Source: Liolophura sinensis (lineage: Eukaryota > Mollusca > Polyplacophora > Chitonida > Chitonidae). Taken from it: a DNA stretch of 64,000 nt. Each line of letters begins with the position of its first letter. Positions within the stretch are counted from its first letter, which is position 1. The translations under genes and the position numbers were made by a program. Positions 38,101 through 63,741 of this stretch are shown here, piece by piece. The notes under the pieces are model-generated. The model had not been told where the DNA came from, ran no database searches, and worked only from the letters and a program-made list of their open reading frames with translations. Location of the stretch: positions 7,487,717-7,551,716 of the forward strand of contig NC_088305.1 in NCBI RefSeq assembly GCF_032854445.1, written 5' to 3'.

Positions 38101-38518
38101 TATACTCAGACATATAAAATACATCATTTACATACTCGGGCATATAAAACACGTTATGTATATATTCATTCATATAAACTACATTATGTATATACGAAGG
38201 CACATAAAATACATTATGTATACACGCAGGCATTTAAAATACGTTATGTATATACTCAGGCATATAATATAAAATACATGGTATATATACTCAGCCATGT
38301 AAAATGCGTTATGTATATACTCAGGCATTTAAAATACGTTATGTATATTCTCAGGCATGTAAAATACATTATTTACATACTCAGACAGGTAAAATACGTT
38401 ATGTATATAGTCAGGCATGTAAACTATATTATGTATATACTCAGGCATATAAAATACATTATGTATATACTCAGGCATATAAACTACAATATGTATATAC
38501 TCAGGCATATAAAATACG

Positions 38519-38612
<94 letters not shown>

Positions 38613-40236: not shown

Positions 40237-40449
40237 ATGGAAATGTTGACCGGAACAAACCCATAATATCAAACCTATGACGTCTTTTACCACCTACGTG
40301 TGTTCTAATGTATACGTACTGTTAAGTTTAAGAGAAGGTCTGTCGTCTGAATAATGCTGGAATGTATTCTGTTACTATGACATAATGCTGTTTTAGATTG
40401 TAACGACAGGACTATCTGCGTTACTTCTGGCTGCTCTCCAACTCTAATG

Positions 40450-40455
40450 ATTAAA
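40450..40455 (+). terminator. Candidate polyadenylation signal of the first carbonic anhydrase gene
   Basis: ATTAAA about 214 bp after the stop codon, followed by T/G-rich sequence. The commonest variant of the canonical hexamer. Confidence 0.4.
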
Positions 40456-40793
40456 GCTGTCGGTCTGACATATCAACGGAGTTTTAGTTCCATTTATATT
40501 CATGTTGTTGTTGTACTGGATTGTCAAACACACAGCAACTTTTATGGCATTACGATTGGTGTGTATGCTAACTGCTTATATTCGAGTAACGAACATTTCA
40601 AGCCGATCTGAACTCGACATGAAATACCTATACCTGAAGGCTTTATTATGTCTGATTTCCTTCTTTTTCCTACATGGAGAATACGGACTGAAACGTTGAC
40701 TGCCATCTTGTCTAGCTCCTGCTCACGTGCAGCGGAAGTGTTGCCATAAGGAATGGCGCAATGCGGCAATCCCTCGTAGTGTGAGGGATTTTG

Positions 40794-40839
40794 ATTGGTT
40801 AAATGCGAGGTCATGGCTCGTAACCTTTTAGTATAAATA
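40794..40839 (+). promoter_or_regulatory. Candidate CCAAT/TATA core promoter of an unannotated transcript
   Basis: ATTGG (inverted CCAAT) at 40794-40798 and TATAAATA at 40832-40839, spaced 34 bp, with GC-richer sequence around them. Downstream, cgcactgtaagtaaa at about 40947-40961 could be a splice donor. The ATG codons between give only very short frames, so any product is unknown. Confidence 0.3.
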
Positions 40840-40961
40840 ATGAGCCCGCAAGGTCGGCATTTTCGGAAAAATAGCAAAAGCACAGTTTACTTACAGCTAT
40901 CCGACCAGAGATGGCACAGCGATAGCCGAGTGCGGTTGATGGCCATCGCACTGTAAGTAAA

Positions 40962-42960
40962 ATTACAGTGCATGGTTTGTTACTGGTGAGGAATATCGGT
41001 ACACCAAGCACATGGCTAATTATAATATTTATGCTATGTAGATCATTACAACGTCACCAAATTCGGTGGAATCCCAGTTGTACATTTCACTGTCTACCAT
41101 ATAGACAGAGATTACACTGGCTTAATAACTTAATATCGATACTACGAGTCTATGCGGGGTGGAAGTTAGTAACCTGCTACTCACCATACCAATCTTGAGA
41201 TCCTTTATGAATAATTTACCTCAAACAATACGTGAGGGTGAATTCGGAGTTTATCCAATCTACTGTCAACCCCACCAAATCCGGTAATGGATGTTGACGG
41301 ACTGTTCCTTGGGGATTTCTTACGAGTATAGCTGTTTATAGACTGGCGTTTGGGAGAAAATCTGGCTGTTGACAGCTTGTTAAAGTGTCACTGTGATTTA
41401 TGCCAGTTTTCGTAGAGATCGCGACAATTGAGGACTAGATGATACTGAAGAGATGTGTTATTTAGGTAGCGTGGACTGAACATTCCACCAATTTAGGTGT
41501 ATTCTGTTTCTGTCCTGGTAGTAAATGTCTCAAGCTCATATAAATACATAGGCCCGTTTATGACCTTGGAAACCAGTTATATGGAGATGCATATTATTTA
41601 ATCTGAATTGAACATACCACCATTTATGGTGATATTAGTTTCAATATCCAGTTTATTATGCATTACCTCGTTTTCACCATATTAGGAACTGGAAGATTAC
41701 AAAAGCTTACCCTGCCTATCTGGTACCTGGAAGATGACAGAAGCCCCCGAGAGATACTTTAAATATTCGTGAATCGTTTTATTCCACTCTAAAGTTATTT
41801 CTTTAGATCATTATGCTGTCTTATAGCACCCAGGAACCCTATAGGTTACCAGGGTACCTAAAACTCTAATGTCAGTTCTTCCTCTGGGATCTCATGTTTG
41901 GAGATTTATTAGAGAATTTCCTACAATAACAATTATCCTGGGGGTAGGGCGCGACAATTTTCAACGTAATATTCTGAAGCATTGTGTTAAATTAACAGAA
42001 TATTTGTGCTACATTTAAAAGAATAATCGGCTGCAATAACAGAATGCAATCTAGCATCACTCTAACAACAAAATTTCTATTAAATTGAACACATTAGTTT
42101 TTGTGAGTAGCTCGCTGCTGAGAATCGTCTTCCTAACTTTGCCCTACATGTTGAAAGCCTGTGCTCACTTTCACAGAACTTCGTAAAGTCTAATTTCTCG
42201 TATAAACGTTTTTCGTAAAAAGATGTTATCTAGGTTATAGTACCACAAGGTGACGCCATTTACCAGAAAAGTTAAAAAAATCTGAATTAGTAAGTTCAGT
42301 GGAAATTGCCCCTGGATCTACTCCATTCGTGGAGACTACACATCCGCCCTCTATATAAGGGCGAATTTATGCCCACACAACACAATCTGTCCCCAGTCGT
42401 TTATTAATGGTTTATTAATGCTGCTTTTATAATAAAGTATGGAACATGGGATATATGGGACTTTATTCCCATTGAATTTACCACTGATGTTGCCCATATT
42501 TTGATATCTGCTATTATGTATGTATGTATGCTTCGGGTTTTACGTCGCACGTTACAAATTTTTTTTAAGTCATATGACGGCGAGGTCTGATATTATGGTG
42601 AATAAACAAACAAACAAACAAACAATACTTGGACGTGTCACAGAGCAAGATTTATTTTAGCTTCGGATTTATTTTGATTTGAATTATTTTAATACAAACT
42701 ATTTATATGAATGTTGTTTAATGAAACACTCGAGAGTTTTTTTTTTAAGGAAGTGAAATAATCCGAGGATCTCCAGTCGGTGATCCTGTGGTATCGGCGG
42801 GAATGGAATGTTTGACTGAGTTCAATCTCTGTGATACTAGAGGGTCACGAGTTGTCTGTTTATCCCCTAAATACAACGACGAGAAAAAAGTACGAAATTG
42901 AGCATCAAATCAGCGAAATATGTTGTCATGTTTCTCTGTTTATACAAGCGGACTAATGTA
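40962..42960. other. Intergenic sequence with no supported gene
   Basis: AT-rich sequence without exon-like frames. A short element head resembling gcttcgggttttacgtcgca lies at about 42530-42600 and ends in (caaa)n at 42605. Confidence 0.5.
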
Positions 42961-42966
42961 AGGATG

Positions 42967-43210
42967 TGACGTCAGCCATTCGGCCTCACACCATAGCGCA
43001 ACATTGGGGAGGCGACACATTTTTTAATCCCGTGAGGTGGCGCTAGTGTGAAGCCGGGACGGGAGCCATTGTTACGTCAAGAATGGATTGTAGTGTAACG
43101 TCTACACCATTACAATGTATCAGATTCTATTGCGACGTCGTAGTGTCTTTAATGTGACGTCATTATGGTGAGTTGGATGAGGTACAATTGACGTCAATAA
43201 AATGACGTCA
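42967..43210. promoter_or_regulatory. Cluster of four TGACGTCA palindromes
   Basis: Exact 8-bp cAMP-response-element palindromes are at 42967-42974, 43155-43162, 43189-43196 and 43203-43210. A half-like site, ttacgtcaa, lies near 43073 and gcgacgtcgt near 43132. Such sites bind CREB/ATF bZIP factors in animals. It lies 2.6 kb upstream of the second carbonic anhydrase gene and just before the open frame at 43265. Confidence 0.6.
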
Positions 43211-43264
43211 CCCTCCTGCTTTAGGTCGTTTGTCGGGTTTTCACTGAACATACGTGTAGGATAA

Positions 43265-43681
43265 ACCTATGCCACACAAAATAATTCAACTTCAGAACTG
43301 TTTTTGCCGACCCAAGATTGGCTGGATTTTTTACATTATCATCTAAATTTATATCAAAGAAAAAAACCCCGAAAGGCTGAAAATTGTCTGCAAACAGTGC
43401 ATGACCATGTTTGTCAGACAAAGGAAGACCTGGAAGACAGAGTGAAAACAGTGATGACGACACTGGTGAGTAGTAGAGTGCAAGTCAACATGCGTCAGAT
43501 TATTCAAAGAAAATCAAGAAGAACATCATTATTACATAACAATGCAGAAATGAAATTGATAAAAGAATCTCCAAGGCATATACGGTTAAAGTCTACATAT
43601 ACTCGAACGTTTGCACCCGATGCAGACAACAAAATCACGTCACGTCAAAGTAGTTCGACGTTTGTGTATGCGTATCTTTGA
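43265..43681 (+). CDS. Doubtful open frame after the TGACGTCA cluster
   Basis: 139 codons without ATG near the beginning, containing DWLDFLHYHLNLYQRKKPRK and KEDLEDRVKTVMTTL, then a basic C-terminal half. A plausible donor, ctg|gtgagt, follows MTTL at about 43465. The composition is not low complexity and looks partly coding-like, but no family is recognised and no start or partner exon was found. It could be an exon, an old pseudogene or chance. Confidence 0.25.
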   Translation, partial: TYATQNNSTSELFLPTQDWLDFLHYHLNLYQRKKPRKAENCLQTVHDHVCQTKEDLEDRVKTVMTTLVSSRVQVNMRQIIQRKSRRTSLLHNNAEMKLIKESPRHIRLKSTYTRTFAPDADNKITSRQSSSTFVYAYL

Positions 43682-43852
43682 TTGGCTGATTTTTATCAAT
43701 TAACTGCCATGAACCAATCAAATACAACTCTTAACTTTTGTTGCCGTAACAGGGTATACGATATTATCCCAAACACCTCATCATTCGTTCTGTGTCACAA
43801 GAGTTTTGAAAAGTGCACCATCGGCGGCTTATTACGGCTACGGGTATGTATT

Positions 43853-44015
43853 TATGTATATATATATGTGTGTGTGTGTGTGCGTGTATGCATGTGTGCG
43901 TCTGCGTGTACGCGTGTGCGTGCGTGTGTGTGTGCATGTATATATGTATGTCTGTATGTCTGTATGTATGTATGTATGTATGTATGTATGTATGCAAGCA
44001 TGTATGCATGCATGT
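43853..44015. repeat. (GT)n and (TGTA)n microsatellite
   Basis: GT-rich run at about 43866-43935, then tatg/tgta tetranucleotides to about 44010. Confidence 0.9.
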
Positions 44016-44039
44016 AGGTATTTGACAGCATACTCTATT

Positions 44040-45784
44040 TGTCTAGATTACATACACTAATCTAGGATTAATACGATTTTCGCCTTGTAACGGAAGTATG
44101 TTAATATAGCACAATGGGTCAATTACGTAGGTCTAAATAACAAATAAAGTTAAACGTGATTTGTTATAGAATGGGAGTATAAGTATATTTTTGGAGTTCA
44201 GAATTGCCTTTTCTGGGTAAATGACAGATAAAATACTGTTAATACCAACCTGTTTTGGGATATATTCCTCTGACAATTCTTAACTGTTAGCAAATAACCA
44301 TGCAAGTTAATCAAAGTGCTATGTACTTACTTATCTCATTTCCTGTTACCATCCTCTTTCTCAATATCCAGTGTATAATTACGAGGTTAAGTTCTGAATG
44401 TTGTTAACCCCTACCCCAACCCCCTAGTTCGTAACAGTTCCTAGTGAAGTAACACGTTTATTCGTTTATCGTCCCATCAAACAAAAGCGGAGATCAACCT
44501 GAGTACTTATCGACGCCATTTTGCGTAGTGATGTTAGAAATCTGATGGGGCGGAGTTTTGCGGCCGTATTTCCGCCGAATTTCAGTCTCTTGTTATAGGC
44601 TGTTTTATGTGGCCTAAATTCTCTTAAATTTATGAGATCCTTATTCTAAAGAAACCAGTTAAATAAAGCCAAAATTTCAAAAAAAATATTTTGTAAACAA
44701 AGCTGTGGATTACTCCTGACAAGAAGAAACATGTCTGTGAAAGAAGTGCGTGTTTCTACGATCGAGGTCTACTCGGTGTTCGTGCAACCGGGATGTTTCT
44801 TGATGTGTGTCCACGAATGTCACTTGGAGAAGACCAACCTCAATTTCGAGTTGACCGTCTCACCGGAAGTCAGCTCTCGACTCTTAAGTGGACATCCAGG
44901 GGTGAAAAGGCAGCCGGTCATATTTTCTGAAGGCATTCGGTAATCCCTGGGAATAATCAACGCCTGACTTGAAGTGTCTCTGATTTCACTTATAAGCATT
45001 ATTTCCACAAGTTCGTCCGAAGAACTTATATGGCAAATGTGTAAGCCAGAGCGGTCACCTCCACCCACAAACCTGTTAGATGGCGGATAAATAATTTAAT
45101 CAGCATTTATTTAATTGCCTGAGCGATGAAGGCACATGTATTTTTCACTTAAACGAGACTAATTAGATTTATACGGGTGGAATGCCACATGCCTGACAAA
45201 CGTTCTGACTCAGCTGGGTTCGAATCTACCACCTCACTGATCAGGCGCCAAACTGCCAAAGGGGGAAAAAGAGATAGCTACTGTGCCCCAATCCAGTATC
45301 TATATTTTGAACAAAATTCGTCGTGGTAAATTTTATGCCATTAATCATTTTGGTAGGCTTACTTTAGGGTGTTTAGATGGATTTCGTATGCGACAATACA
45401 TCGGCATTTAGATGAAATATATCACCTCACTGCCTCTACATGTACAACTACAATGGCTATAAGATATTCCCTGCCTCAGATCTTTAGTTTGGGGTCTTAT
45501 TTACATGCTGAATAACGCGTAGTCTTCAGCGCTTAAACCAGCCTGGCAGAGAACAAAATGGTCGGCGACTATGTCAGAGTTTGTCGTTGGGTTTTCTCAT
45601 TGGAGTGTGGAGGGTACTGTTTACTCCTTCCAGCACTCACACCAATGTAGTAGGGGGTGACTTGGAGGAGAATTTCACCATCCACTGGAAAACAACACTC
45701 TGTTTTTGGCCTCTTTGTCGAATATTTCAATGCTCAAAAGGTTAAGTTAATTTATCCGGAGGGAGTTGGATAAAATAAGAGACA
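44040..45784. other. Upstream flank of the second carbonic anhydrase gene
   Basis: No gene supported. A 70-codon frame at 44731-44943 has even composition but no recognised family. A reversed tRNA-like fragment, ggttcgaatctaccacctca, lies at about 45218 and probably belongs to a SINE. Confidence 0.45.
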
Positions 45785-45905
45785 ATGCGTTTATTACGAG
45801 TTGTGAAGTGGTGCCTACTGTTAGGTTTACTAGATAACTGTAGCGGCAGCCCTGTCGAAAGTTTGACTGTGGAAGACAAGGCCATGGGAAATTCAGCACA
45901 AATAG
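45785..45905 (+). other. Signal peptide exon
   Basis: MRLLRVVKWCLLLGLLDNCS is a basic start followed by a Leu-rich core, with likely cleavage near CSGS-P. The exon ends in phase 1 and is separated from exon 2 by a 4.2-kb intron, so its linkage is the least certain in the gene. Confidence 0.75.
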
Positions 45906-48900
45906 GTGAGAATACGCAAAGCCATAGAATTTGTGTTTTCGCGCCATTTTGATAAGTATGGTCAAAATATTGTGTTTACTCCCTCTTCTTCCTTTCTTTG
46001 TTTTGAAAATATGCTCTTCCCACAATGTGCGTATAAGCATTTTTTTTACTTTAATACGCTAAGAATCTGTCACTTTGACCTTGTTTGTTCATTTTGATAA
46101 GCATTTCCCACAAAGATGTCGGTATGAGCATAGTTAAATGTTTCCCTCCATTTTAACAGTATATTGGGCTTACAATGGTATACCGCATAGGTAGAGTATC
46201 TTACGCCATCATGTTATACGTAGGTCTTTGTATGTACGTACGTACCTATGTATGTGGTCGTGGGTTTCACCCGGGCTCTGTCCGGTTTCCTCCCGCCATA
46301 ATGCTGGCCGCTGTCATATATATGAAATATGTAAAACACCAATCAAATAAATAAATATATAAATATGTACATGTGTGTATGCATGTATTGTTGATATGTA
46401 TATTTACTTCTCTTGATGTTTCGCAGCAGCCTGCGCATGGCTGTGGTGGATGATAAGAATTAAGTGACTCATTACCTATACGATTTATGGTATTAAACTG
46501 ATTCTAAAAAATTTAAAATGCGACCCGCTTTAGAACTATTCGAAACTTTATTAACCATTCATTATTCGGGCTACTATAAAAAAAACGTTTGAAATTCGAA
46601 TACATATGCGCTGATCAAATCTTGTGCTAAGCATCTGAGGTGAACATCTTTAAGTCATTCATGTGGGGGAATTTAGATAGCCGACCTCATGTGGCTAGGT
46701 GGTGTACCTGACAAACCTGACGGTTATAATGATGAAGTTAGACTCACACTGGTGATCTCACCTTACATTTGCCAGCACTGCATTTGAAGTAATTCTACAC
46801 TATACTGACTTATTATAAATTGCATGTTTTTGAACCTGCTTCTCCTTTAGCCATGCTGCTAGGGGGCGTGTACTCTGTTACTATTTAAACATTTACATGA
46901 ACATTTAGAATAAAACATAAAACCCTGGCTGAGGTAAATTGACAAGAGGCCGTATGTCATCCGTTACGTTTGACCATTTGCCAGCTATCACACTGTCGTC
47001 GCTGTCCGTGTGCAGAGTCTTACGATCGACATAGCCCACTTCTCTTCAAGCAGTAAGGTATGCATATCGTCTTAAGTATGGCGTTAAATAACAATCAGAT
47101 ACATTAAATACATTAAATACATTAATCAATATAAGTCTGCTGGGGATCGTTCACCCGAGGCTGGAGCAACACTTTGTACGTTAAGTAAGAATCTGATCAA
47201 CGTTGAAGACCATCAGTTGAAGCCATCAATTGCAAGAGCTTAAAATATCAAACGCGACTAAAGAAAAGACTGAAATTGTGAGTGGTACATTTTTCTGCAG
47301 TAAAAACACCAGCGTATAAATTTTAAACTTCCTGCAGTTAAAAATATTTTAATTTTAGCTGTGTTCGAATTTTGGACTTCAGTCTTAAGACGTTTGATAA
47401 ATATGGGTCCCGAATTCATATATACATTTGGAGTGTTTGGACAAGCTAACAAAATAAAACATCTGGCTAATTATATAACGTAATTTTTAGGCCTACATTA
47501 ATTATTTACGGCTTGCAACACAAGTTGTAGGCTTATATCAATTGTTTACGGCTTGCAACACAGGTTGTAGGCTTATATCAACTGTTTACGGCTTACAACA
47601 CTGTTGTAGGCTTATATCAACTGTTTACGGCTTACAACAAAGGTTGTAGGCTTATATCAATTGTTTACGGCTTCCAAAAGAGGTTGTAGGCTTATATCAA
47701 TTGTTTACGGCTTACAACACAACTTGTAGGCTTATATCAACTGTTTACGGCCTACAACACAATTTGTAGGCTTATATCAATTGTTTGGACTTGCAACACA
47801 AGTGGTAGGCTTATATGTAACTTGTTTACTATGAATCCCGTTTAATAAGTAAACCGATGGTTTACAAAGGACGAGTATACTACTTGCGACAGAAATTACA
47901 AAACGTACCCTAGAAATTCGGACACACGGTAAACTATAATTATAGTTCCATATGAGGACATACAAGCTGATGTGAAACCGATAATTAAGCTATGTGTGTT
48001 CAGCCCTGGCCTTGGCCAATGAATTTGTAGATTCCTGAAGACCTCGCTATTTTTGGGGCCTTGGTGACAACAAGGACAACAAGTGGTCGAGGACACTCAT
48101 ATGACCACTTCGCCAGAGTAACATTCATCGAAGACCGCTCGACCAATATGATGTGTAGGCCTATATCTGTACGTCACACTTGAGAAAGTTCATGGTAACT
48201 TGTCAAACTGACAGGGGTTTTCTCCGGGCATTCCGGTTTCATCCACCTATAAACTGACCACCATTGTATAAGTAAAAAAAAATGAGTATTGCGTTAAATA
48301 AATATTAATTAGATAAATACATCGTGCAACTGGGCAAAGACTACACAGACTGTTCATAGTGTGAGGTAAAGACTTACACTAAATTATTGATTTACACAAA
48401 AAATCCGTAATACCGACATTTTAACCCACAGATTATTAAGTAAGTATTGTACAGTTGAATCTCATGAAAGTTATTTCGTTTAGTTTAGAGCGCACTATAC
48501 ACAGCTGGTTGAATTTTTATATATATTTTTGTACAAGTTATATGAAGAAAAACCATTCTCCGTACAGATTAAAGTGAGCATGGGAAAACCTATTTAAAAC
48601 CAATTATTTTTTGTAAGATAATCTTTATCTGTTGAAGTAATCAAGTTAACTGAGATAAATTGTTTCCGTGACCATTTTATTCAATTTTACTTCAAAGTTT
48701 ATCAATTTAAGTAATACCTGCAAATGTGGTGGAGTGGGGTGGCGGGGAGGGGCTCTCATTGTATTTTGACCAAAAATGTACTAATTTAAAGTATCTTAGA
48801 ACATAGGTTTTTGGACATACATTCGATACATTCCTCCTGCAATTCAATTATCTGCGTGGCTTACACAGAACAGTACATGTTCAGTGCTGAAATATCGTTT

Positions 48901-51900
48901 TTTATCCTCAGAAATTCAGCACAGTTCAATTTCATGACTGAAACAGAATATTTTGTCATCTTCAATTACAAAAAAAAAACAACTTCTGACTTATTACTAA
49001 AACAGTACCTTTCGTTACCAGGAATAAAAATCTACCGTACTTGTTTATCGCTCAAACAGTACCCTTCGTCACCACAAATGAAAATGTAAAAAAGTTGTTC
49101 AATGCTAAAACAGTACCTTTTGCCACCAGGAAAGAAAATGTACCGTACTTATTCATCCAAAAACAGTATCCATCGTTACCAGGAATGAAAATGTACCGTA
49201 CTTGTTTGTCGCTCAAACAGTACCCTTCGTCACCACAAATGAAAATGTAAAAAAGTTGTTCAATGCTAAAACAGTACCTTTTGGCACCAGGAAAGAAAAT
49301 GTACCGTACTTATTCATCAAAAACAGTATCCATCGTTACCAGGAATGAAAATGTACCGTACCTGTTCATTACTAAAACAATACCCTTCCTTACCAGGAGT
49401 AAAAATGTATCGTAATTGTTCATTACTAAAACAATACCCTTCCTTATCAGGAATGAAAATGTATCGTATTTGTTCATTACTAAAACACTACCCTTCGTTA
49501 CGAGGAATGAAAATGTACCGTACCTGTTCATGACAAAAACTGTACCCTTCGTCAGCAGGAATGAAAATGTACCGTACCTGTTCATGACAGAAACCGTACC
49601 CTTCGTCAGCAGGAATGAAAATGTACCGTACCTGTTCATCGCTAAAACAGTGCTCTTCGTCATCAGGAATGAAGATGTACCATACATGTTTATTACTAAA
49701 ACAATGTCCTTCGCCAACAGAAATGAAACTGTACCATATGTGTTCATTACCAAACAGTAGATCTCGACACAAAGAATGAAACTTTACCGCATATATCCGT
49801 TACTAAATCAGTACCATTCTAATAAAATAACACCGTTTATGTGCAATACTGAAGCAAAATCAAACAAACATTGACCATTTTACTACCGTTAGACACATAT
49901 CAAGTTCCTACTCCCCCCTCCCCCATCTCTGAAATGTCGTTGTTACATTAGCTTAATTAATCGCCAACTGAGAAACTTTACCACTCATGTACTTTGCGGG
50001 AACTGGTGGATTTTTTTCTAGCACAATTTATCAGTTATTCCAGTTTTCTTCCCCCAGAATTTCCAGCGTTCTGTGTTCTCACCGAAGGCCGGTTTCTCCA
50101 GCGATTTGACGGAGCTACCCGAACTTTACCGACGGTTGGTGGGGAGACCGTCACGAGCCTTTGTTCAGATCCCAACCAGTTTCACGTGACTGTAACGATA
50201 ACGGGATCCTACGAGAACAAAACCGCTCATCTATTCCTGACGGTCAAGGACGGTACCAGGGTAGTCAAAGCAAACTTGAGGCAGCAACAGGACTTCCAGG
50301 TAAATATAATTAAAAACTACATGAAATATTTTAACTAAAGGGAAGTAAATGAAAATAAACCTGGAAACAAATAATACTGCCCACTCTCACAGAAAGGGGA
50401 TTTTGTGGCGAGGGAACTCGCCGTTCAAAACATGAAAGAATTAAAGAGAGTGCGACCAAAATCTTAATGTTAGAAAGTCAACTTTAATTATTTTAAAGGA
50501 GGCAATACTGGGAAAATTTTAAATAAGTTCTTGACTATATTATCTTTTGGAGTGCAAAGGGACAGCATCCATCGATTTACCTAATGCTTGATTCCAACGC
50601 CCTATTGTTTTTGGCTGTTTTAAGGCGATATGTTCAAGTACTGCAGCAGTATTGACGTGTAGAATTGCAATGCAGTATTAGATAAAAGAGATCTTCACTA
50701 AGTCAAACTGTCGAAATCTTTACTAACCGGTGGTCATGAGATCTTCGCCAGGTTGTGTAGTCAAAATCTTCACTAAGTCAAGCTGTCGCGATCTTTAGAA
50801 ACCGATGGTCATGAGATCTCCTGCAAGTTGTGCAGTCAAGATCTTCACTAAAGTTGTGCAGTCAAGATCTTCACTAAGTCAAGCTGTCGCGATCTTTATA
50901 ACCGGTGGTCATGAGATCTCCGGTAAGTTGTGTAGTCAAGATCTTCACTAAGTCAAGCTGTCGAAATCTTTACTAACCCTTGGTTACGAGATCTTCGCCA
51001 GGTTGTGTAGTCAAAATCTTCACTAAGTCAAGCTGTCGCGATCTTTACAAACCAGTGGTCATGAGATCTCCGGCAAGTTGTGTAGTCAAGATCTTCACTA
51101 AGTCAAGCTGTCGCAATCTTTACTAACCGGCGGTCATGAGATCTTCACCAAGTTGTGTAGTCAAAATCTTCACTAAGTCAAGCTGTCGCGATCTCTACAA
51201 ACCGGTGGTCATGAGATCTCCGGTAAGTTGTGTAGTCAAAATCTTCACTAAGTCAAGCTTTCGAAATCTTTACTAACCGTTGGTTACGAGATCTCCGGCA
51301 AGTTGTGTAGTCAAGATCTTCACTAAGTCAAGCTGTCGCGATCTTTACTAACCGGCGGTCATGAGATCTTCACCAAGTTGTGTAGTCAAAATCTTCACTA
51401 AGTCAAGCTGTCGCGATCTTTACAAACCGGCGGTCATGAGATCTCCTGCAAGTTGTGCAGTCAAGATCTTCACTAAAGTTGTGCAGTCAAGATCATCACT
51501 AAGTCAAGCTGTCGAAATCTTTACTAACCGTTGATCATGAGATCTTCACCAAGTTGTGTGGTCAAAATCTTCACTAAGTCAAGCTGTCGCGATCTTTACA
51601 AACCGGTGGTCATGAGATCTCCGGCAAGTTGTGCAGCCAAGATCTTCACTAAGTCAAGCTGTCGAAATCTTTACTAACTGTTGGTCATTAGATCTTCACC
51701 AAGTTGTGTGGTCAAAATCTTCACTAAGTCAAGCTGTCGCGATCTTTACGAACCGGTGGTCATGAGATCTCCGGCATGTTGTGTAGTCAAGATCTTCACT
51801 AAGTGAAGCTGTCTTGATCTTCGGCAAGTTGCGCAGTCAAGATCTTCACTGAGTCAAGCTGTCGCGATCTTTACTAATTGGTGATCATGAGATCTTCACC

Positions 51901-54900
51901 AAGTTGTGTAGTCAAGATTTTCACTAAGTCAAGCTGTCGCGATCTTTACTAACCGTTGGTCATGAGATCTTCGCCAGGTTATGTAATCAAGACCTTCACT
52001 AATCAAAATTTTGACGAAATATTTTGCAGTACAATTCTTACAACGATGGAGGCTATGACTGTCTCTCCATGGCTGGCGTACAGACTGTAGTACGGAATTT
52101 CGGCGAATCACTGGTTATAGAAACAGGTAGGCACAAGTTTTGATTTGTATCCATTTCATCGTTGGGGATGGCGGTTAGGCTTGTGTCTGGAGGAAACAGG
52201 AAAGAAACCTGCCGGGCACCGGTCAAACCTCCTGCCGTAAAGCCTCGACTGGATAAGTTGAAGCTGGATCCGAACTTCCCACCTCTTTCATCTAGCGTAG
52301 TAGTACCAGTATGTTGGCAAAACCCCGTTAGACTAGATGACCAACAAGAGCTGGGAGAGCATCACATTTTGACCATGGGGCTTCCGTGGTTCAGTTGGTT
52401 ATCGCGCAATGACCCAGGAGCCTCTCAATGCGGTCGCTGTGAGTTCAAGTCCGAGCTGGCTTCCTCTCCAGCCGTAAGTGGGAAGGTCTTCAAACAACCT
52501 GCATATGGTCGTGGATATCCCCTAGGCTCTGTCCGGTTTCGTCCCACCATAATGCTGGCCGCCGTGGCATAAGTGAAATATTGGCCTAAAACACCAATCA
52601 AATAAAGAAATAAATAAATCATTTCGGCCATCACCCCCAACATCTTCCCTCCCCCAATATATTCTATCGGTTCACTCAGTGATTAATCAGTTGCAACTTA
52701 CAGCCTTCAAACAACTTGGCCTAAGCAGGATTAGGGTAACAAAAAGTTGCAGTGACGTGAGACGTCTGTAAATACTCAAAATGATGTGCTGTTGTCATAT
52801 TTGTCAAAATAATATAGAATGTTAATTTGACAAAACATTAAGCAGTACAAACGGAACAAAAACTGTTAATGTAAATTCCTTGCGTGATATTCCTATCGTC
52901 GATAACTAAAGGTCATTGATCACAACCGATATATGCAGGATTTGCTTTACTTTCTTTCTAGGGGCATCCATAGCTTGGTTAGTGTGCTAGAGCAGCAAAA
53001 TAACCCAGGAATCTTGCACTTATGCTATGGCTGTAAGTTCAAGTCCAAATCATGCTGGCTTCCTCTCCCGCCGTGCATAGGAAGGTCTGTCCGTCAGCTT
53101 GCGGATAGTCATGAGTTTCCCCTGGGCTGTGTCCGGTTTCCTCCCATGATAATACTGGCAACATCCACATTGGTGAAATAGTACTGGTCGGAGCGTAAAA
53201 CACCAGTTAAATGAACACCAGTTAAATTAAATTGTTATACTGTTGCCATTGTCCCAAACTACAAACAGATCTACCATATTTTTGCACTATATCCTCTGTT
53301 ATGAACTCTTCAATCTTGTTCAGGGTTTGCGTCCATTATCGTGAACAGGGACCTGAAACTTGAGACTTACATGGTGCAGAATCCCCGATCTCCGCTGTGC
53401 GGCACGTGCGGCTACGTGCCAGACATGAGCGAGGTCTGCTCTAAGCAAGGTACGAATCTGTCATATCCTTCCCTTTCTTCATAAAAAGTTCTAGTTTCAT
53501 TACATTTTTTTCAAATATAGTAGTTAGATACAACTACTTGCTGAATGTTTCCAGTACACTCTCAGGAAAAAAATTGTCTTTGTAAAATTTTGAAGAGTTG
53601 TGTTTTCACAGGCATACAAGGGTCGACTGATTTATGACACGTATAAGTAATGCAGAGAAACGAATAAAACATTGTGCATTTGAGGTTGTATTCTTAAAGT
53701 CCGACACATTATATCCTTTAGGTGCATTTATTTGCAGTTCTTATCCTCGAGCCAATGTCTGCCGGTTTGAAGGATGATGGGAACGAGGCAGTGAATTCCG
53801 GTAACGACAAAGAGGCCGATGATCACTTGGTACATTGGTCGTATGACATGCACGGAGAAGGAGGTTTGTGAATCGTTTAACAAACGCTATAAACATTGAG
53901 GAACAGGAATACAGCGAGCCATTGCATGTGCTGGTTTTGCACATGTCTGGGACATTATGATATATCTTTTTAAATAAATTGACGACATGGTTTCCATTCT
54001 TTTCAATAAACAGTTCTATTTTTTATTAAGGCTATGACAGTTTGTTTCTTTGGATTCAAAATCACGTTCAATATTTATTTTTGTATAATCATGACGTTAT
54101 CTCCTTTAAACCGGCAGCTGTCTTTATAGTGCTGTATCAGTAAAATACAATGCTGAAGACACCACACATAATTCTCCACGACATGACAGTCAATTGACAT
54201 CAATACAACAAGATTTTACAGCATAAAGAGTAAAACCAGAACAATGGCAACAGTACAACAGCCAGCAAATGGACATACGTGACACGACCTCATGCCAATT
54301 TACTAGTTAGGGTTAGGGTTAGGGTTTTATTCTAACTGTTGATGTACATGCTGTGGTTTTCACCCTCGCCTCCAGGTCCCGATCACTGGTCTCAGCTGGA
54401 TGCGGAAAAAGTCGCTTGTGATGTGACTCGTTCCTTTTCCCGCCAGTCTCCTATCAATATCGAAACCGGAACCACAAAGTTGGACCCGGCTGCACCCGTA
54501 CCGCATTACACCATCACCAATCCATACGCGCAAGGCAAATTGGTGAATTCCGGTAAGACGAAACAGGGGCCCTTTTCTTTTTATAATACTACTATTTAAA
54601 ATTCATTTCTCATCTAGGTTGCATGTTCTTGTGCCTATGTTCCTCGTTTGGCTGCGGCTTTAAGCCAGTGGGTACCAGTATCTCGAGAATGGCGGTAAAT
54701 TCTTCCAGGCACTCCGGTGTTATCCTACCATAAACCTGATTGATTAATAAATACAAAGGTTTTCCTAATTTTTACATCTTTCTGCCGGTGTACGTGTGGA
54801 GGTCTGACAGCAACCTGCGGATGGACGTGGGATTCCACCGGGTTCTGCCCGGTTTCCCCTCCCCCCCCCCCGCTCCCAACCATAACGCTGGTTTTAGTCG

Positions 54901-57900
54901 TATAAGTGAAATATTTTTGAGTATGGTGTAAAACACCAATAAAATAAATAAATGCATCTTTCTGCTCACTCTATTATATCAGACGACAGCAAAACAGCAT
55001 TGAGTTTCAAACAGATTTCCTTTTTAGACTGCCTGAAAATAATCGTGGACTACAAGAAATATCAGAGTTGGTTTTATATTTTTCTTTTATCTCCAAAGGA
55101 GCAACCTACTTTAAACTGATAACAGGTTTGAAAGTATAAAATTCCTTTCACATTAATATGTGTACAATGCTTTGTGATGCGTGTCATTAAAAATACTGTG
55201 AGTAATTGCTTTGTAGGCCACGCCCCCTCTTTGACGCCTGTGAACGCCTCCTATATCCTGAAAAACGTTCCGTATAGCCTTGAAGAATACACTCTGCTAG
55301 GACTGCGCATACACTTCGGACCAAATAGCAATTCCGGCTCGGAACATACGGTGAACGGAAAGACCTACTCAGGGGAGGTAAGTCGTTCGAGAGGTTTATC
55401 GTTTCAGATTGTTGCGCTATCGAAACAGCGTACTGCTTTTTTAATAGGGTATGTTATGTACGGATTATTATGTATATTTTTCCATATCATCTACCAGGAC
55501 TCATACCAATATGGGTACATTATAGTCTATAATAACAACATATCCGTTTAACAATCTATAAATTGACGAGCAGGAACGATGAGTGATTGACAGACGGAGA
55601 CATGACATGCAGACAGTCTCCGTTGGGCGTGAAATACAGAAATAGAGAGACTCACTCTAGCACGCGCAGCAAAAAAATATTAATTTAATGATATCAGCCC
55701 GAGGCTGATATGTACTTTTCGGACCCCACCACACAGAGGTGCAGTTTTACGTGTATTGTTGGGAGATATGTTATAAATATTTCTTTTGCTTGCTTAAAGG
55801 AGGAAGTTGTAGCTTCCTCGCTTGGCGTTCAGCATGAAGGGGATCGCGCAAACGACTTGTTGACCCGTATACTTGTTGACCCGTATCAGTATAATGGCTT
55901 ACTTGCCTTCGGTAAGTCGTGTCAGTGAAGCAGCACTAGATAAAAGAGCGATGGAAATCCGGTCTGAAATAAGGGGGCACATTACATGCACTCTAAGGAT
56001 TCCTTTGTCGTCATATGATTGAAAAATTATTAAGTTCGACGTTAAACCCCAAGCACTCACTCATTCACTCTTTTGCTTACTATTGAACAGTTGTATAATT
56101 TTTATTTTCAGGTTAGGTTCATAATTCCGTTTTTCATATTTCTACACCCAGATTTGTTTGAAACTCGATGCAATAAAAGCCACCTATTGTGTTCTTTCCC
56201 AAGATTCATTTCGTGAACTACAACACACGGTACGGTGGACTCCGAGAGGCCTTGAAACACTCTGACGGATTGGCTGTCATTGGCGTTTTCCTGGAGGTGT
56301 GTTTGACGAATTCTGATTGGTGGACGGGATACGACCATCACGCTGGTTAAACCCTCTGTAACTCAACCTGTCATCACATAAACCCGATCATATCGTATGA
56401 CTTCCACATCTAACGAGTTTTAAACCAGGTGAAATCCCTTTTAACTTAAAATCGATCAGTTTTTGAACTTATGGCCCACAAGTGGAAAGACACATCTGTC
56501 TGCAGATGCTTCAGTATTTGAAAGCTTAAACCACCATAAAACGCGTGGGAAATCTCCGAAAAAGAGACCACCAAAAGAGCACAAGCCCAGCCATACAAAT
56601 AACCTATTTCTGCTTCTTTTGCCTTCAGTCAAAGTCTGATTGACGTCGTATAAGCGGTCAAGTTTATTCATGATTATATCAACAAGCATATAGGCAGTGG
56701 ATTTGAACCAACGATTTAAGGATTATAAATTCAGGCTTTTACCGCTAAACCAATCGGAAACTCACCGAGCCATAAGGCTGATCTAGCTTGTATCCCGTGA
56801 TACATGTGCGCATGACAAAATCAAACCACTGATGTGAGAGAAATATTGTTGTAATTTTACAGGTTTCGGATGGACCTCCCGGTGCCAGCAACAACGAGGA
56901 ATTGTCAAGAGTCCTGGATCATCTGGACGCCATCAGCAACAAGGGTACGACTAAAAATTTTTTGTTGAGATATTTGATTTCCTACTCACTGCTGCAGTAT
57001 TACATACAACCAGTTTTTGATGTTTTGAGGATTTGCTTAAGTTGCTTATACAACAATTGCCACATTTACCGATTGAGACAATGTGGCACTACCGCTGGGT
57101 TTTTTTTTTTTTTGACACACGAAACTTTATTTTACAGAGGAAACTTTATTTTAGAGGGGACATTTTATCATACAGAGGAAGTTTTATTTTACTTTTATCT
57201 TATATTTTACTTCCATGTTTACCCTTTAATTAATGCCCTGCTTTAATTAAACTCTCCACAACTTTTATATACCAGATTCTCCTTTTTCTCTTGACGAAGA
57301 CATATTTGACATATAAGTTAGGCTTGAGACACATCCTCATTCATGGGTTGGGGTTTACTAGGCAAGTTACAAGTTAACGAATCTGGCACGTTTCTATCTA
57401 TATGCCAGACAATGAAGCATTCCTGCCTGTGGATATGTCAAAAATCCTTCCAACGGAATCGGACCTCAGCTCTTACTACACATACGATGGCTCCCTGACC
57501 ACCCCCGGGTGTGACGAAATCGTACGATGGATCGTCCTGTCCCGTCCCTGGGGAATGACTGAACGTCAGGTGAGGCTATGTTTTCTAACCTATATCTGGA
57601 ATACCACGACGCCAGTTGAATGTTTGGAAAATTAAGGCTGCCTTAAATCTTAATCCATACATGTATACGTCTTGACCAAATACAAAAGTGGGGGGGGGGG
57701 GACTTGAGTCAAGACTAAAGCCAATACCGGTCGTAACACCCTAATCCTTACCTCCCCTAACATCCTAACCTAGCACTAACGCCCTAACCCTAACCTAGCA
57801 GTATCACCCTAACCCTACCTACCCACCCCCCACTTAACACCCTAGCCTAGCACTAACACCCTAACCCTCTTCCCCTTAGCACCCTAACATAGCAGTAACA

Positions 57901-60900
57901 CCCTAACGCTAACCTATCATTAACATCCTAACACTAATCTAGCACTATCATCTTAACTCCAACCTCCCATTAACACCCTAACCTAGCTCTAACAAACTAA
58001 CCTAACCTATCCTTAACATCCTAACCCAAACCAAGCACTATCATCTTAACTCTAACCTCCACTTAACACCCTAACCTACTACTAACACCATGACTCTAAC
58101 CAAACCCTAGCCTAGCACTAAAACTCTAACCCTAACCTAGCTCTAACACCGTAACCCTAAGATAGTATTAACACCCTAACCCTAACCTAGCACTAACACC
58201 CTAACACTAACCTAGCATTAACCTCCCCTTGACACCCCTAACTTAACACTAATACCCTAACCTAGCCCTGAGGCCCTAACCCTAACCTCCCACTAACATC
58301 TTAACCCTAACCTAGAACTAACCTAACACTAAGATCCTAACCTAAAGTATCCCTAACACCACAACCCTAATGCACTGACACCATAAGGCTAACTTTGCAC
58401 TAACATCATATCCTAAAGTATCCCTAACACCATGAAATAACACTGACCCTAATCCCAAACACTATCCCGCCCGAATCCGACTAATCCACCGTTTGTTCCA
58501 AACACATTAAGCATGGTGAGCTCTTCCACGGCATGTACATGGGGTTAAGCCCTAATTATTCATTCCACGCCATGTACAGCATACCAATACGTGCACACAT
58601 CCGCAAGGAGAATGTGCTAATATTTTCATCAGGAAATTCAAACATGCTGAATCGACTGAGCGTTTAAGTCATTAGATTTGCTATCTACATGATAAAGGCA
58701 CGTTTTTGTTCGGATTTTTTCCTCTACTTCTTAACTTGGTTTTCGTCGTAAAGTTGGCAGATTCTTACTATCTTCAAGTCCTATATATAAATCTATTAAT
58801 CGTAAATCCACCATCTATGCAGCGTTGGAAAATGGAAAGAATTTATGATACAGGGTAAATACTTTTTGTATATGAACAAGCTGCATGTATATCAACAAAC
58901 TGTAACTTTAACCTTTACCCTGCTACATACATGTAAGACCTATCAGTTTTTAGAAAACAGATCCAGATCTCCTATGCGAAATGTTTTATGGAATATATCA
59001 TCTACGCGTTTCAGTTGAGCGCGTTACGTTTGCTGCGGACGGGCGGAAACGAGTCCGAGCCGATGGCTGTCCACGGAAACTACCGACCAGTGGCGCCACT
59101 GAATCGACGAACGATCATCAGGAGTAAGTACGGAAGACTTTCGCCTTTGCCTGATTGACCGCAAGACATTTAGAAAGTGGTTCTAGTCACAGTTTTATCA
59201 CAGGTTAAACGCATTTTGTATTGGATAAATTTTTAGAAAAAAATTCTGCAGGGGGCGTGGAGGGGGGGGGGGGCTCCGTGGCAGAGGTGGTTAGCACGAA
59301 TGACCGAGGAGACACCAATGCGGTCGCTGCGAGATTAAGTCCAGCTCATGCTGACTTCTTCTCCGCCCGTAGTTGGGAAGGTCTGACCGCAACCTGCAGA
59401 TGGTCGTGGGTTTCCCGCTGGTTCCGCCTTGTTCCCCCCCCCCCGCCCCTTAATGCCAGCCGCCGACGTACAAGTGAAATATTCTTGAGTACGGCGTAAA
59501 ACACCAATCAAATAAATAAACAAATAAATACGGTATATATATTCTGAGCTTTATTGTTCTCGGCACGGTATGGCTGGGATATTGCCGAAGTGGCCATAAT
59601 AATTCATTCACCTTAAAGCCACTTTAATTGTCACCCTTCAGAACAACACAGAACAGATTAATTAATTGAAGTAAATAATTAAAAGAATTAATAAAATAAT
59701 TAATTAATAAAATTAGTAACAATCTAAGTGTTGTTTAACGTCATATTCAAGAATTTTTCACTTGTACGATGGCGGGCAGTTGAATGGAGAGAACCAAAGT
59801 AAACGGCGAAAAGCACCGACCTTGGGCAAGTGAACTTTTCTGACATGTGACTTACATATGGGTATCTGTATTCGTGGAACAGAACAGAACAAAACTGATG
59901 ATGTAAGCTTATTATTCAAAAATAAATCTCGTTAATATTCACCATTCATGGGCTGACGTGATTTAATCTGACCTTTGACGTATACGAACTACTACATGGT
60001 GGAACCCATCACGGTGGATTGAAGTTTACAAACAGTTGATAAGCAGACTTTGATATTGTGGATACTCGTATCAGGAAGCTTTCTTGTTTTCAGGAGAACC
60101 GGGACTTCACACGGAACCTTTGGTGCCAGGTAGGAGAATGTAATCTTTTTACCTCAGCGTGGTTCATCTAGGATAACTTATGGTAAAGTAAGCATCGCCT
60201 GGAGCAGCTTGTGATACAGTAGGCATCGCTTGTGGCAATTTGTGATACAGTAGGCATCGCCTGTGGCAACTTGTGATACAGTAGGCATCGCTTGAGGCAA
60301 TTTGTGATACAGTAGGCATCGCCTGTGGCAACTTATGATACAGTAGGCATCGCTTGAGGCAACTTGTGACACAGTAGGCATCGCCTGAGGTAACTTGTGA
60401 TAAAAGTAGGCATCGTCTGGGGCATCTTGTATACAGTAGGCATCGCCTGAAACAACTTGCGATATAATAGACATGGTGCAAAACAAGCTCTTATACAGTA
60501 GGTATCGCCTGAGACAACTTGTGATACAGTAGGCGTCGTCTGAGGCAACTTGTATACAATAAAATTCGCCTGAGACAAATTATAAAACAGCAGGCATCGC
60601 CTTAGGCAACTTGTGATACAGTAGATAAGCAAACTTTGATATTGTGGATACAAGTGTGGATACTTGTATTAGGAAACTTTCTTGTTTTCAGGAGAACCGG
60701 GGCTTTACATGGAACCTTTGGTGCCAGGTAGGAGGATGTGATCCTTTTACAAGATCAGAAAAAGTTGTCTTGCTGGAGATCAGTTAAAATAAAATATATG
60801 TATTGTGGGAGTTAGTACAAAGTGTGGTTCACTTAGGATAACTTATGATAAAGATGGCATCGCCTAAGGCAACTTGTCATGTAACAGATCTCGCCTAGGT

Positions 60901-63741
60901 ATCGGGTAAATTATGATACAGTAGGTATCGCTTGAGGCAACTGGTACAGTAAGCATCGCCTTAGGCAACTGTGATACAGTTGGCATCGCCCGAAACAACT
61001 TACCATACAGTAGGCATCGCCCGAGGCAACCTGTGATAAAGTAGGTATCGCCTGAGGCAAGCTGTGATACAGTAGGCATCGCTTGAGGCAACCTGTGATA
61101 CAGTAGACATTGCTTGAGGCAACCTGTGATACAGTAGGTATCGTCTGAGGCAGTTGTCATTAAACATCGCCTGAAACAGTTGATGGCACATTAGGCATGC
61201 CCTGAGACAACTTGTGACAGAGTAGTCATGACCTCAGACAATATGTGATACAGTAGGCACCGCTTGAGGTACTTGTGATATAGTAGGCATGGCCTGAGAC
61301 AACTTGTGACAGAGTAGTCATGACCTCAGACAATGTGTGATACAGTAGGCACCGCTTGAGGTACTTGTGATACAGTAGGCATGGTCTGAGACAACTTGTG
61401 ACAGAGTAGTCATGACCTCAGACAATGTGTGATACAGTAGGCACCGCCTGAGGTACTTGTGATACAGTAGACATGGCCTGAGACAACTTGTAATACAGTA
61501 TCGCATCTCGTGGTATCTTTCAGCAAAGTATAGATCACAGGAGGCAACTCATGACACGGTATGCATGGACTGGATAAGTACTTGCGAAGCAGCATATATT
61601 ACTTGAATACAACAATGTTCGACATAACACTGTATGAATTACCTAATATACGTTATGAAGAGTAAGTATGGCCTAATATAACCACTGAGACAATGTACAT
61701 AGCTGTGAAATAACTTATACCCCAGTGAATGAATAGATATTTAACAATTTTTCAGTCATATGACCTCGATGTATCACATAGAGTATAAACCACCGAAGCT
61801 GTTTATACTAATGCATGCCGCCGCTGAAGCATCATGCCGAAAGCACCAGACATGACACCCCACCCAGTCACAGTATACTGACACTAGGTCGACCAGTCAT
61901 TTTCAGTCTTTGCATGGCTTAGCTCAAATGTCTTCATCTCTGTATTTAGGGACTAACAAAATTTTCGTATATCCCAAAACCAAGAAGAAAGAATCATTGA
62001 AAATCCATTAACCAGTCTGATTGTTGTTTTTGTTTTTTTTTTCCATTCGAAGACCTCCCCTCGCTGGAGCAGAGAGCATCTGACATCGAGGGTCCCACAA
62101 GACCCGGCACAACACCCCGAAAGACAGCTCGCAAAGACTACACATTCAATTATGACGTCAACTCCCCGTCAGGTATGATGCTGTTTTCCTTTCAGTCATT
62201 TAATCCCTGGTACAAACCGATCAAACTGTCTTCGTTCTTATTTTACTATATGTATCTATGCTTGGGGTTTAACGCCGTACTTAGCAATTTAGTCATATGA
62301 CCATGGCGTCATTTGGTGTACGTGCATGTATTGTGTCTTGTTGTGGCAGGGCGAGTCCATGCCGCCTAAGTGCTGCCTCCACTGAAGTATCATGCAGAAG
62401 ATATCAGACATGACCGAGTTATCTTTTATTTATTTCACTGGTGTTTACCGTCGTGTTCATGAAATTTTTAAGAGAGGTAGATTCGAACTCACAGCCTCAT
62501 TGACCAAGGACTTGATATTCGCACTCAACTAGCGCTTTAACCGTATGACATACCGAGGAACCTAAATGCTAAAATACATATATATTCGTGTGTATATCCT
62601 TTCTTTTAAAGGACATGCGCATTGGAAAGATCAGGGTCCAGGGCCGGGAGCCTGTGACGCTAGTCGTGCCGCCAGTCGACAGTCCCCCGTAGACATCATC
62701 ACGCCGGCACTGAAGAGAGCTATTGTTCGGGACCCTCTCGTCTATAACCACCAATCGGGAGCTTTGGCGGGAAACCTGAGGAATAACGGTAAAACAAAAG
62801 TGTTGTCATAATATTCTACACTTGTAAACTTTACCAGAAACCACTTCAGAGTCACTCTGATTTAAGGCTCTTATTCATACGGCCTACACAGAGACACATT
62901 TTGCCATTTCTGAAATGAACACGTCAGATTTACCACATATTGTTTTAAGTATTCAAGGATTATGTTGTTTTTTAAATATACTTCAAATTTATAGCATTCA
63001 TTGTTTGGAAGTTCACTTTCACATTTACGCAGTTTACGCGCATCCTTACCGCTATTGTGTGTGTGTGTGTGTTTTTAATTAATTTCATGGGTCACTTTGA
63101 GGTATTGCCTCAAATTGGTATTGCCCCCTGCCACATCTAGCCAAACAGTCAAACAGAACACATTTCATATTGAAATAAGATCTTTTCTTCTGAGGATTTC
63201 ATCGAAGTACTTGCGATTTCGCCAAACAAATAAAAGCGACCGTATTCTGTTGCAGATAAATACAGTATCTGTAAGATTATTTAGAAACGTTTTAGTATGT
63301 TGTAATCAAGCTACATTTAATGTGGTTTTCGAATTATAATTGATTTCTTTTCATTTTTTGTTGCTTTAAATTGTGCCTTTTTTCTATTTTTACTTTTGGA
63401 AGTTTCTATTTTAAGATCGAAACCATATAAATGTTTCCTGGTTCTAATATGTTTTCACCACGACATGAATGAAATACTTCGATTATGATTTAAATCCCAA
63501 TAATTAAGACTCAATTACTCAATATATGTGTGGTCATACTTCTTTGTGCCTTCCAATGCCGTACGTCATGCTCTACACAGGCCATTCGCCGGTGTTCGAA
63601 TTTGACATCCCTGACCGCATCCTGAGCGGTGTGCCCAACACGACAGATGAGTACGAGCTACTCCAGTTCCACATGCATTTCGGCCCAAATGACGTCACTG
63701 GATCGGAGCACCTACTGGATGGCAGCGCGTTTCCGGCTGAG
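45785..63741 (+). CDS. Secreted VWD-like / double alpha-carbonic anhydrase protein, partial (3' end outside window)
   Basis: Exons: 45785-45905, 50058-50299, 52030-52126, 53324-53449, 53738-53863, 54376-54552, 55217-55377, 56204-56296, 56863-56944, 57409-57569, 59015-59123, 60094-60129, 60692-60727, 62053-62172, 62612-62788, 63581-63741. All are GT/AG, phases agree throughout, and 2025 nt (675 codons) are visible. Order: signal peptide (residues 1 to about 22), VWD-like module about 41-196, alpha-CA domain 1 about 230-498, linker 499-550, alpha-CA domain 2 from about 551. Domain 1 has Arg327 at the His94 zinc position and is predicted inactive; domain 2 keeps H652 and H654. The exons for the rest of domain 2 lie beyond 64000. 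Grouping all exons in one gene rests on continuous phase and direction, absence of a stop, and linker exons joining the two CA domains; transcript data would be needed to exclude two genes. Confidence 0.82.
46255..46360 (+). mobile_element. Family A SINE, 5'-truncated
   Basis: 3' half only, in intron 1 of the second carbonic anhydrase gene. Confidence 0.75.
47475..47822 (+). repeat. About 40-bp minisatellite, intron 1 of the VWD-CA gene
   Basis: Unit gtaggcttatatcaattgtt then tacggcttgcaacacaggtt, eight to nine copies. Confidence 0.9.
48985..49815 (+). repeat. 54-bp minisatellite with higher-order period, intron 1 of the VWD-CA gene
   Basis: Unit aaaacagtacccttcgtcac then caggaatgaaaatgtaccgt then acctgttcattact, about 15 copies. 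A three-unit block of about 161 bp is repeated (gtaaaaaagttgttc at 49086 and 49247). Open frames on both strands are 18-residue repeats, not genes. Confidence 0.92.
50690..52010 (+). repeat. About 75-bp minisatellite, intron 2 of the VWD-CA gene
   Basis: Unit gatcttcactaagtcaagct then gtcgcgatctttacaaaccg, gtggtcatgagatctccggc and aagttgtgtagtcaa, about 17 copies. It ends about 20 bp before the exon 3 acceptor. Variants alternate between tcgcgatc/ctccggc and tcgaaatc/cttcgcc types. Confidence 0.92.
52376..52620 (+). mobile_element. Family A SINE, near full length
   Basis: Box A-like gtggttcagttggtt and box B-like gagttcaagtcc are present, with an (aaat)n tail. Intron 3 of the second carbonic anhydrase gene. 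Confidence 0.85.
52962..53205 (+). mobile_element. Family A SINE, diverged
   Basis: Same intron as the copy ending at 52620. Head, box B and body are recognisable with many substitutions. Confidence 0.75.
54305..54328 (+). repeat. Short telomere-type (TTAGGG) tract
   Basis: agttagggttagggttaggg in intron 5 of the VWD-CA gene, about 50 bp before exon 6. Confidence 0.8.
54778..54952 (+). mobile_element. Family A SINE, 5'-truncated
   Basis: Body and tail with an expanded C run inside. Intron 6 of the second carbonic anhydrase gene. Confidence 0.75.
55798..56085 (+). mobile_element. Family B SINE, 5'-truncated
   Basis: Matches the 3' two thirds of the 39184 copy, including ttgacccgtatcagtataat, part of which is internally duplicated. 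Intron 7 of the second carbonic anhydrase gene. Confidence 0.7.
57725..58460 (+). repeat. Degenerate CCCTAA-rich tandem tract
   Basis: Hundreds of bases built on caccctaaccctaacctagc and ctaac, with units of about 20-25 bp. Intron 10 of the VWD-CA gene, in opposite orientation to the TTAGGG tract at 54305. Confidence 0.85.
59263..59530 (+). mobile_element. Family A SINE, full length
   Basis: Head through (aaat)n tail, with an internal C run. Intron 11 of the second carbonic anhydrase gene. Confidence 0.8.
60094..60129 (+). other. 36-nt linker exon 12, copy 1
   Basis: Encodes EPGLHTEPLVP in phase 1 on both sides, between CA domain 1 and exon 14. It is duplicated at 60692-60727 with a spacing of 598 bp. 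Confidence 0.75.
60170..60625 (+). repeat. 31-bp minisatellite between the two 36-nt exons
   Basis: Unit gatacagtaggcatcgcttg then aggcaacttgt, about 14 copies in intron 12. Confidence 0.93.
60692..60727 (+). other. 36-nt linker exon 13, copy 2
   Basis: Encodes EPGLYMEPLVP, with both splice sites identical to copy 1 (gttttcag before, gtagga after). Either copy can be skipped without changing frame. Confidence 0.75.
60835..61580 (+). repeat. 31-bp minisatellite, second array
   Basis: Same unit family as 60170-60625, about 20 copies in intron 13, more diverged towards 61500 (gacagagtagtcatgacctc variants). It starts at the same distance after copy 2 of the exon as the first array does after copy 1. 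Confidence 0.9.
61735..61910 (+). repeat. Dispersed repeat family C, copy 2
   Basis: Best match to copy 1. Located in intron 13 of the second carbonic anhydrase gene. Confidence 0.6.
62053..63741 (+). other. Linker and start of alpha-carbonic anhydrase domain 2, exons 14-16
   Basis: Exon 14 encodes a charged, Pro/Thr-rich linker, then the domain entry YTFNYDVNSPSG. Exon 15 has GHAHWKDQGPGPGACD, SRQSPVDI and LRNN. Exon 16 has NNGHSPVFEFD (His64 kept, H623) and LLQFHMHFG (zinc ligands H652 and H654), with GSEH and a terminal AE before the His119 exon. Exon sizes 177 and 161 nt equal those of domain 1, showing internal duplication. Confidence 0.88.
62258..62415 (+). repeat. Dispersed repeat family C, copy 3
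   Basis: Begins with a ggggtttaacgccgtactta segment and ends in gcagaagatatcagacatga. Intron 14 of the second carbonic anhydrase gene. Confidence 0.55.

Follow-up and report, generated by a model that had tools for sequence, protein, structure and literature searches.

In a 64,000-nucleotide window of the genome of the chiton Liolophura sinensis (contig NC_088305.1, positions 7,487,717 to 7,551,716; all coordinates below are positions in this window), we observe a chain of exons encoding carbonic anhydrase (CA) domains. We think it probable that the chain belongs to one gene for a secreted, modular α-CA that begins with a signal peptide and a VWD-like module of divergent sequence, followed by a CA domain that is acatalytic (CA-1), a short linker and a CA domain apparently of the catalytic type (CA-2), and that continues beyond the window.

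Homology, open reading frames and splice signals were combined manually to rebuild the gene. The resulting chain lies on the + strand at 45785-63741 and has 14 exons and 13 introns, all of them GT-AG with phases that fit, and the joined reading frame of exons 1-14 is 651 codons long and free of stops. An earlier note on this DNA had proposed exons joined in consistent phase, which is borne out, and had counted 16 of them; the frame is open with 14 and needs no more. Since a further donor lies 3' of exon 14, the gene extends beyond the window end (64000). Phase-1 introns are found at all five module borders, the pattern expected of shuffled extracellular modules. In the list that follows, codon usage is given as the fraction of open background windows scoring as high under a model trained only on the CA exons and on CA-A, a separate CA gene upstream.

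Exon 1, 45785..45905, + strand: predicted signal peptide (MRLLRVVKWCLLLGLLDNCSG...), 40 codons, phase-1 donor; codon usage 0.455 of background.
Exon 2, 50058..50299, + strand: N-terminal half of the VWD-like module (C....GRFLQRFDG); codon usage 0.0515 of background.
Exon 3, 52030..52126, + strand: middle of the VWD-like module; codon usage weak, 0.154 of background.
Exon 4, 53324..53449, + strand: C-terminal part of the VWD-like module, with the CGTCG motif; codon usage 0.0299 of background.
Exon 5, 53738..53863, + strand: linker and lead-in to CA-1 (HLVHWSYDMHGEG); codon usage 0.0051 of background.
Exon 6, 54376..54552, + strand: start of CA-1 (RQSPINI).
Exon 7, 55217..55377, + strand: zinc site of CA-1, LRIHFG, with Arg for His94 and His96 kept.
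Exon 8, 56204..56296, + strand: CA-1, EIHFV, with the third ligand His119 kept.
Exon 9, 56863..56944, + strand: CA-1.
Exon 10, 57409..57569, + strand: CA-1, GSLTTPGC, with Thr199 kept and Cys203.
Exon 11, 59015..59123, + strand: end of CA-1; donor GGA/GTAAGT; read-through stop at 59156-59158.
Exon 12, 62053..62172, + strand: linker between CA-1 and CA-2; open frame without an ATG before the donor; codon usage 0.0438 of background.
Exon 13, 62612..62788, + strand: start of CA-2 (RQSPVDI).
Exon 14, 63581..63741, + strand: zinc site of CA-2, FHMHFG, with His94 and His96 kept; the gene runs on.

Long minisatellite arrays lie in introns of this gene (48993-49819, 50688-52006, 57871-58433 and 60175-61500), and three consecutive TTAGGG units stand at 54307-54324, in the intron 5' of CA-1. 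The G+C content of the window is 38-42% in 4-kb blocks.

The two CA domains are well supported. In the joined protein, Pfam recognises PF00194 over two separate stretches, with an E value of 1.8e-81 and a score of 273.9 bits (curated cut-off 27 bits). When seven single segments were compared with Pfam, five gave a CA match, three of them above the curated cut-off; the two that gave none were the VWD-like exon and the segment in which exon 9 lies. CA-1 occupies residues 238-498, covers positions 2-252 of the 254 in the Pfam profile, matches solved CA 2 structures with an E value of 5.2e-41, and is 38.0% identical to human CA2 (242 aligned) and 40.3% identical to CA-A (243 aligned). In human CA2 numbering, the domain has Arg at position 94 and keeps His96, Glu106, His119, Val121, Val143, Leu198, Thr199 and Trp209. 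Because the zinc ligand His94 is replaced by Arg, CA-1 is probably acatalytic, in agreement with the pseudoenzyme-like domain of the earlier note. CA VIII also has Arg in place of His94. The loss of a zinc ligand is shared with the carbonic anhydrase-related proteins CA VIII, X and XI; those, however, are single-CA proteins, whereas the altered domain here is a module of a predicted secreted protein with CA domains in tandem.

CA-2 is represented by 113 residues inside the window, among which His64, His94, His96 and Glu106 are kept; the position of the third ligand, His119, falls 3' of the last exon in the window. Judged from these residues, the domain is apparently intact as far as it is visible and of the catalytic type. 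A second CA domain had been claimed before, and the Pfam match upholds that claim, although the domain is incomplete in the window. Both domains have cysteines at extracellular-type positions in the alignment, namely C252 and C443 in CA-1 and, in CA-2, C553, which corresponds to the first of these two; CA-A has both cysteines of the pair. The positions of C252 and C443 are those that we take to form the disulfide of extracellular CAs, Cys23-Cys203.

The module that precedes CA-1 opens with C....GRFLQRFDG and closes, about 130 residues on, with CGTCG, as seen by eye. The VWDs of VWF, MUC2, FCGBP and ostracod luciferase likewise start with C....G...FDG and end with CGxCG. We compared residues 41-225, unfiltered, with profiles built from known VWDs in PDB entries, using shuffled sequences as the control. 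A 13-row profile, which includes MUC2 and ostracod luciferase, gave 15.4 bits over residues 46-184, a score equalled by 1 of 20,000 shuffles, and aligned model positions 1-136 of 145 with FDG and CGxCG in register. An 8-row profile, in which one row is a consensus, gave 16.2 bits (0 of 2,000 shuffles as high; 12.3 bits for the whole 651-residue protein), the 7-row profile that leaves this consensus out gave 14.6 bits (0 of 20,000), and a profile of the four FCGBP rows alone gave 11.2 bits (1 of 20,000). Reversed, the sequence scored between 0.0 and 1.0 bits with each of four VWD profiles. Among 275 open segments that occur naturally in the window, the one containing exon 2 came first with the 13-row profile (8.6 bits) and first again with the VWF profile. 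Over 15 columns found invariant in seven known VWDs, as read off the alignments, nine residues are kept (C1, F12, D13, C31, F40, C137, G138, C140 and G141).

A number of results weigh against a VWD assignment. Pfam, with its filters on, lists no PF00094 (VWD) at E up to 10 for the whole protein or for three sub-regions, NCBIfam reports no VWD for the region, and phmmer against the PDB found no VWD, its sole line being a sperm antigen with an E value of 0.09. The lines that Pfam and NCBIfam do give in the region are at chance level (EndIII_4Fe-2S, E 0.21, 0.17 and 0.056; HypB_prefix_2, E 0.45). The profile made from the three VWF rows alone gave 6.6 bits, with 42 of 20,000 shuffles as high, and in 13 leave-one-out runs the module scored 10.3-17.1 bits, compared with 37.2-156.9 bits for the true VWDs left out. 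The exon-2 segment ranked fourth of 275 with the 7-row profile (3.8 bits) and lower than fourth with the FCGBP profile. Six of the 15 invariant residues are lost (G5, G21, C23, Y25, P89 and L139), and exon 2 by itself, modelled with AlphaFold from a single sequence, comes out as all strand but with a confidence (mean predicted local distance difference test score 46.6) too low for a fold comparison. Hhalign of seven VWDs against the region gave a weak match, with P 0.0019, a probability of 14% and just 45 C-terminal columns aligned.

These results could be explained if the module were an unrelated, cysteine-bearing β module, the tandem secreted CA then carrying an N-terminal extension of a novel kind. 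The missing match in Pfam, NCBIfam and the PDB sequence search, the low hhalign probability, the number of shuffles that reach the VWF-only score and the loss of the consensus residues Cys23, Tyr25 and Pro89 all speak for such a module. We nevertheless regard it as doubtful, if worth keeping in view, given an alignment that keeps FDG and CGxCG in register over the length of the module, the rarity of shuffles that score as high with the 7-domain and 13-domain profiles, and the near-zero scores of the reversed sequence. A VWD relationship is modestly supported, and from the profile alignments the N-terminal module is probably VWD-related, very divergent, and not a clear VWD. The VWD-type module of the earlier note thus stands in a weakened form, absent from the general searches and marginal (15.4 bits) with dedicated unfiltered profiles; and the profile search, which that note had named as a means of refuting the assignment, returned a mixed answer, in that Pfam has no match and the 13-row profile is equalled by about 1 in 20,000 shuffles. 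Pfam reports no C8 or TIL module after the VWD-like module, the order known from VWF and mucin D regions, and lists CA alone in the 651 residues.

A single gene that holds the VWD-like part, the pseudoenzyme-like CA and the second CA is the best model and a fairly supported one, as read from exon phases and splice signals. The codon usage of exons 2, 4, 5 and 12 falls within the top 0.5-5.2% of the open background, and that of exon 3 within the top 15%. The 14 donors, scored with a generic donor matrix, include two at critical joins that count against the model: donor 53863, from the VWD-side linker to CA-1 (GAG/GTTTGT), has a score of 2.8, the lowest of the 14, and donor 59123, from CA-1 to the linker, has a score of 4.4, the fourth lowest. 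The first exon counts against it as well, lying 4.2 kb from exon 2 and having a codon usage that 45.5% of open background windows equal. Because its codon usage is neutral, the predicted signal-peptide exon is the least secure of the chain. It has the correct phase and a hydrophobic core, the core being barely above the cut-off used, and a scan of 40240-50050 for an ATG with a donor returned seven candidate rows, four of which represent one simple-repeat open reading frame. The secreted protein with a signal peptide that had been proposed for this locus therefore fits in phase and core, but it competes with other candidate first exons and gains nothing from codon usage.

We also considered two adjoining genes, the first encoding the signal peptide, VWD-like module and CA-1 and ending at the stop at 59156-59158, the second a separate CA-2 gene that starts in the 59-62 kb interval. 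Reading through exon 11 does meet that stop 11 codons past the splice point, which tells against a single gene; the last exon of CA-A likewise ends a few residues beyond the matching place, CA-A shows that single CA genes occur in tandem at this locus, and the low score of donor 59123 is owed to a poor exon side. On its intron side, however, the same donor reads GTAAGT in full, the join to exon 12 keeps the phase, exon 12 lacks an ATG before its donor, and in 59130-62050 we found no signal-peptide-like first exon with a phase-1 donor, at a cut-off that even exon 1 barely clears. We therefore think two genes unlikely.

Proteins with two α-CA domains have precedents in molluscs. The DDCA of Tridacna squamosa combines a signal peptide with two CA domains, each with the three histidines, and besides the protein of T. 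gigas (tgCA) four other two-domain CAs have been named, two of them α (PMC5879104). DDCA, tgCA and the two-domain CA of Phreagena okutanii resemble the protein described here in having two α-CA domains and in being cell-surface or extracellular proteins, as far as the accounts consulted in part indicate. That the present gene encodes an ordinary dual-domain CA of the DDCA type, serving inorganic carbon uptake at an epithelial surface and with an incidental N-terminal part, is suggested by the signal peptide and the tandem CA domains but strikes us as improbable, because each DDCA domain has all three zinc histidines and the first domain begins at residue 43 (PMC5879104), whereas CA-1 begins at residue 238 and lacks His94, and because the C-terminus, where a protein of the DDCA type would have a GPI anchor or transmembrane stretch, here falls beyond the window. 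The portions of the DDCA report drawn on here mention no VWD-like module, while in our protein a 237-residue N-terminal part precedes CA-1.

Nacrein, in a limpet shell study, is described as two CA domains split by a Gly-X-Asn repeat; of three nacrein-like limpet entries, two have a single CA domain and one has no predicted CA domain (PMC3374290, consulted in part). It is a secreted α-CA, as is predicted here, but CA-1 is a full-length CA match by itself, and no Gly-X-Asn repeat of the nacrein type is present in CA-1 or the linker, within the part of the protein that lies in the window. Loss of zinc histidines has been reported for nacrein-like CAs of mussel and oyster (PMC6639325), and CAs of the abalone shell have been described (PMC6003135). 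Red coral skeletons contain both vWD and CA, listed as domains and, in the excerpts of that work used here, not described as one protein (PMC7853314). Ciliates need a fusion of CA with an aldo-keto reductase for their armour (PMC13344042), and therefore CA fusions can matter for mineralisation. We did not find VWD and CA in one protein in the open-access literature, where descriptions confined to the body of a paper or to a supplement could be missed. The order of signal peptide, VWD, CA and CA had been put forward as undescribed, and our searches of the open-access literature agree within their reach, although the tandem CA alone is known (PMC5879104, in the part used). Multi-domain extracellular CA is thus already known, and it is the combination of a VWD-like module, a pseudo-CA and a CA that appears unusual.

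If the favoured single-gene model is correct, the protein would be exported and disulfide-bonded, the VWD-like module, perhaps with the pseudo-CA, would hold it in an extracellular matrix, mucus or surface, and CA-2 would convert CO2 to bicarbonate and back at one fixed site. We hypothesize that such a protein may act in mineralisation as a matrix scaffold. It is also conceivable, though we would put it forward only tentatively, that the gene represents a class of extracellular proteins not described before, made of CA domains in a chain, with a VWD assembly module that serves to polymerise or anchor the chain. The acatalytic CA would then be a binding or spacing unit, followed by the catalytic CA and perhaps by more, and the matrix so formed would set the local supply of bicarbonate where it is deposited (e.g. 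shell, tube or mucus). Should both the VWD assignment and the single gene hold, a bicarbonate-supplying enzyme would be built into an assembly module of the VWF and mucin type, beside a dead copy of the enzyme, and this would offer a directly testable route to immobilising CA activity in a polymer outside the cell. Should the tandem CA alone be upheld, the gene would be a divergent and partly acatalytic addition to the few known dual-domain CAs.

Upstream of this gene lies the complete CA-A gene.

CA-A, 29103-40236, + strand: secreted single-domain α-CA; 7 exons, complete, with a signal peptide, 285 residues, Pfam E 1.6e-68.

CA-A keeps His94, His96 and His119, and its introns have phases identical to those of CA-1 and, by alignment, the same positions; the end of exon 5 also resembles the end of CA-A exon 1 (LVHFNYD...). 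Because this separate upstream gene shares the intron phases and places of CA-1, the locus amounts to a small cluster of CA genes in tandem. Duplication of such a CA unit, together with capture of a VWD-like module, may have given rise to the multi-domain gene. CA-A was considered as part of the same gene and rejected, since it has a signal peptide of its own and ends with a stop at 40234-40236. A search 5' of CA-A for a second VWD-like module, by tblastn and motif, gave chance-level lines only. One CA-A intron contains, at 37608-37792, a 37-bp tandem repeat of five copies with 98% match.

Farther upstream, exons of a KAT2 (PCAF/GCN5) gene are found.

KAT2 exons, 2640-2763, 3281-3426 and 21000-21192, + strand: PCAF_N in two and a bromodomain in one of five segments tested (1-21 kb).

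A 43-bp minisatellite of 19 copies occupies 3400-4212, its unit consisting of the end of a PCAF_N exon and the splice donor of that exon; the array is made up of degraded copies of the genuine exon end and donor, repeated into the intron.

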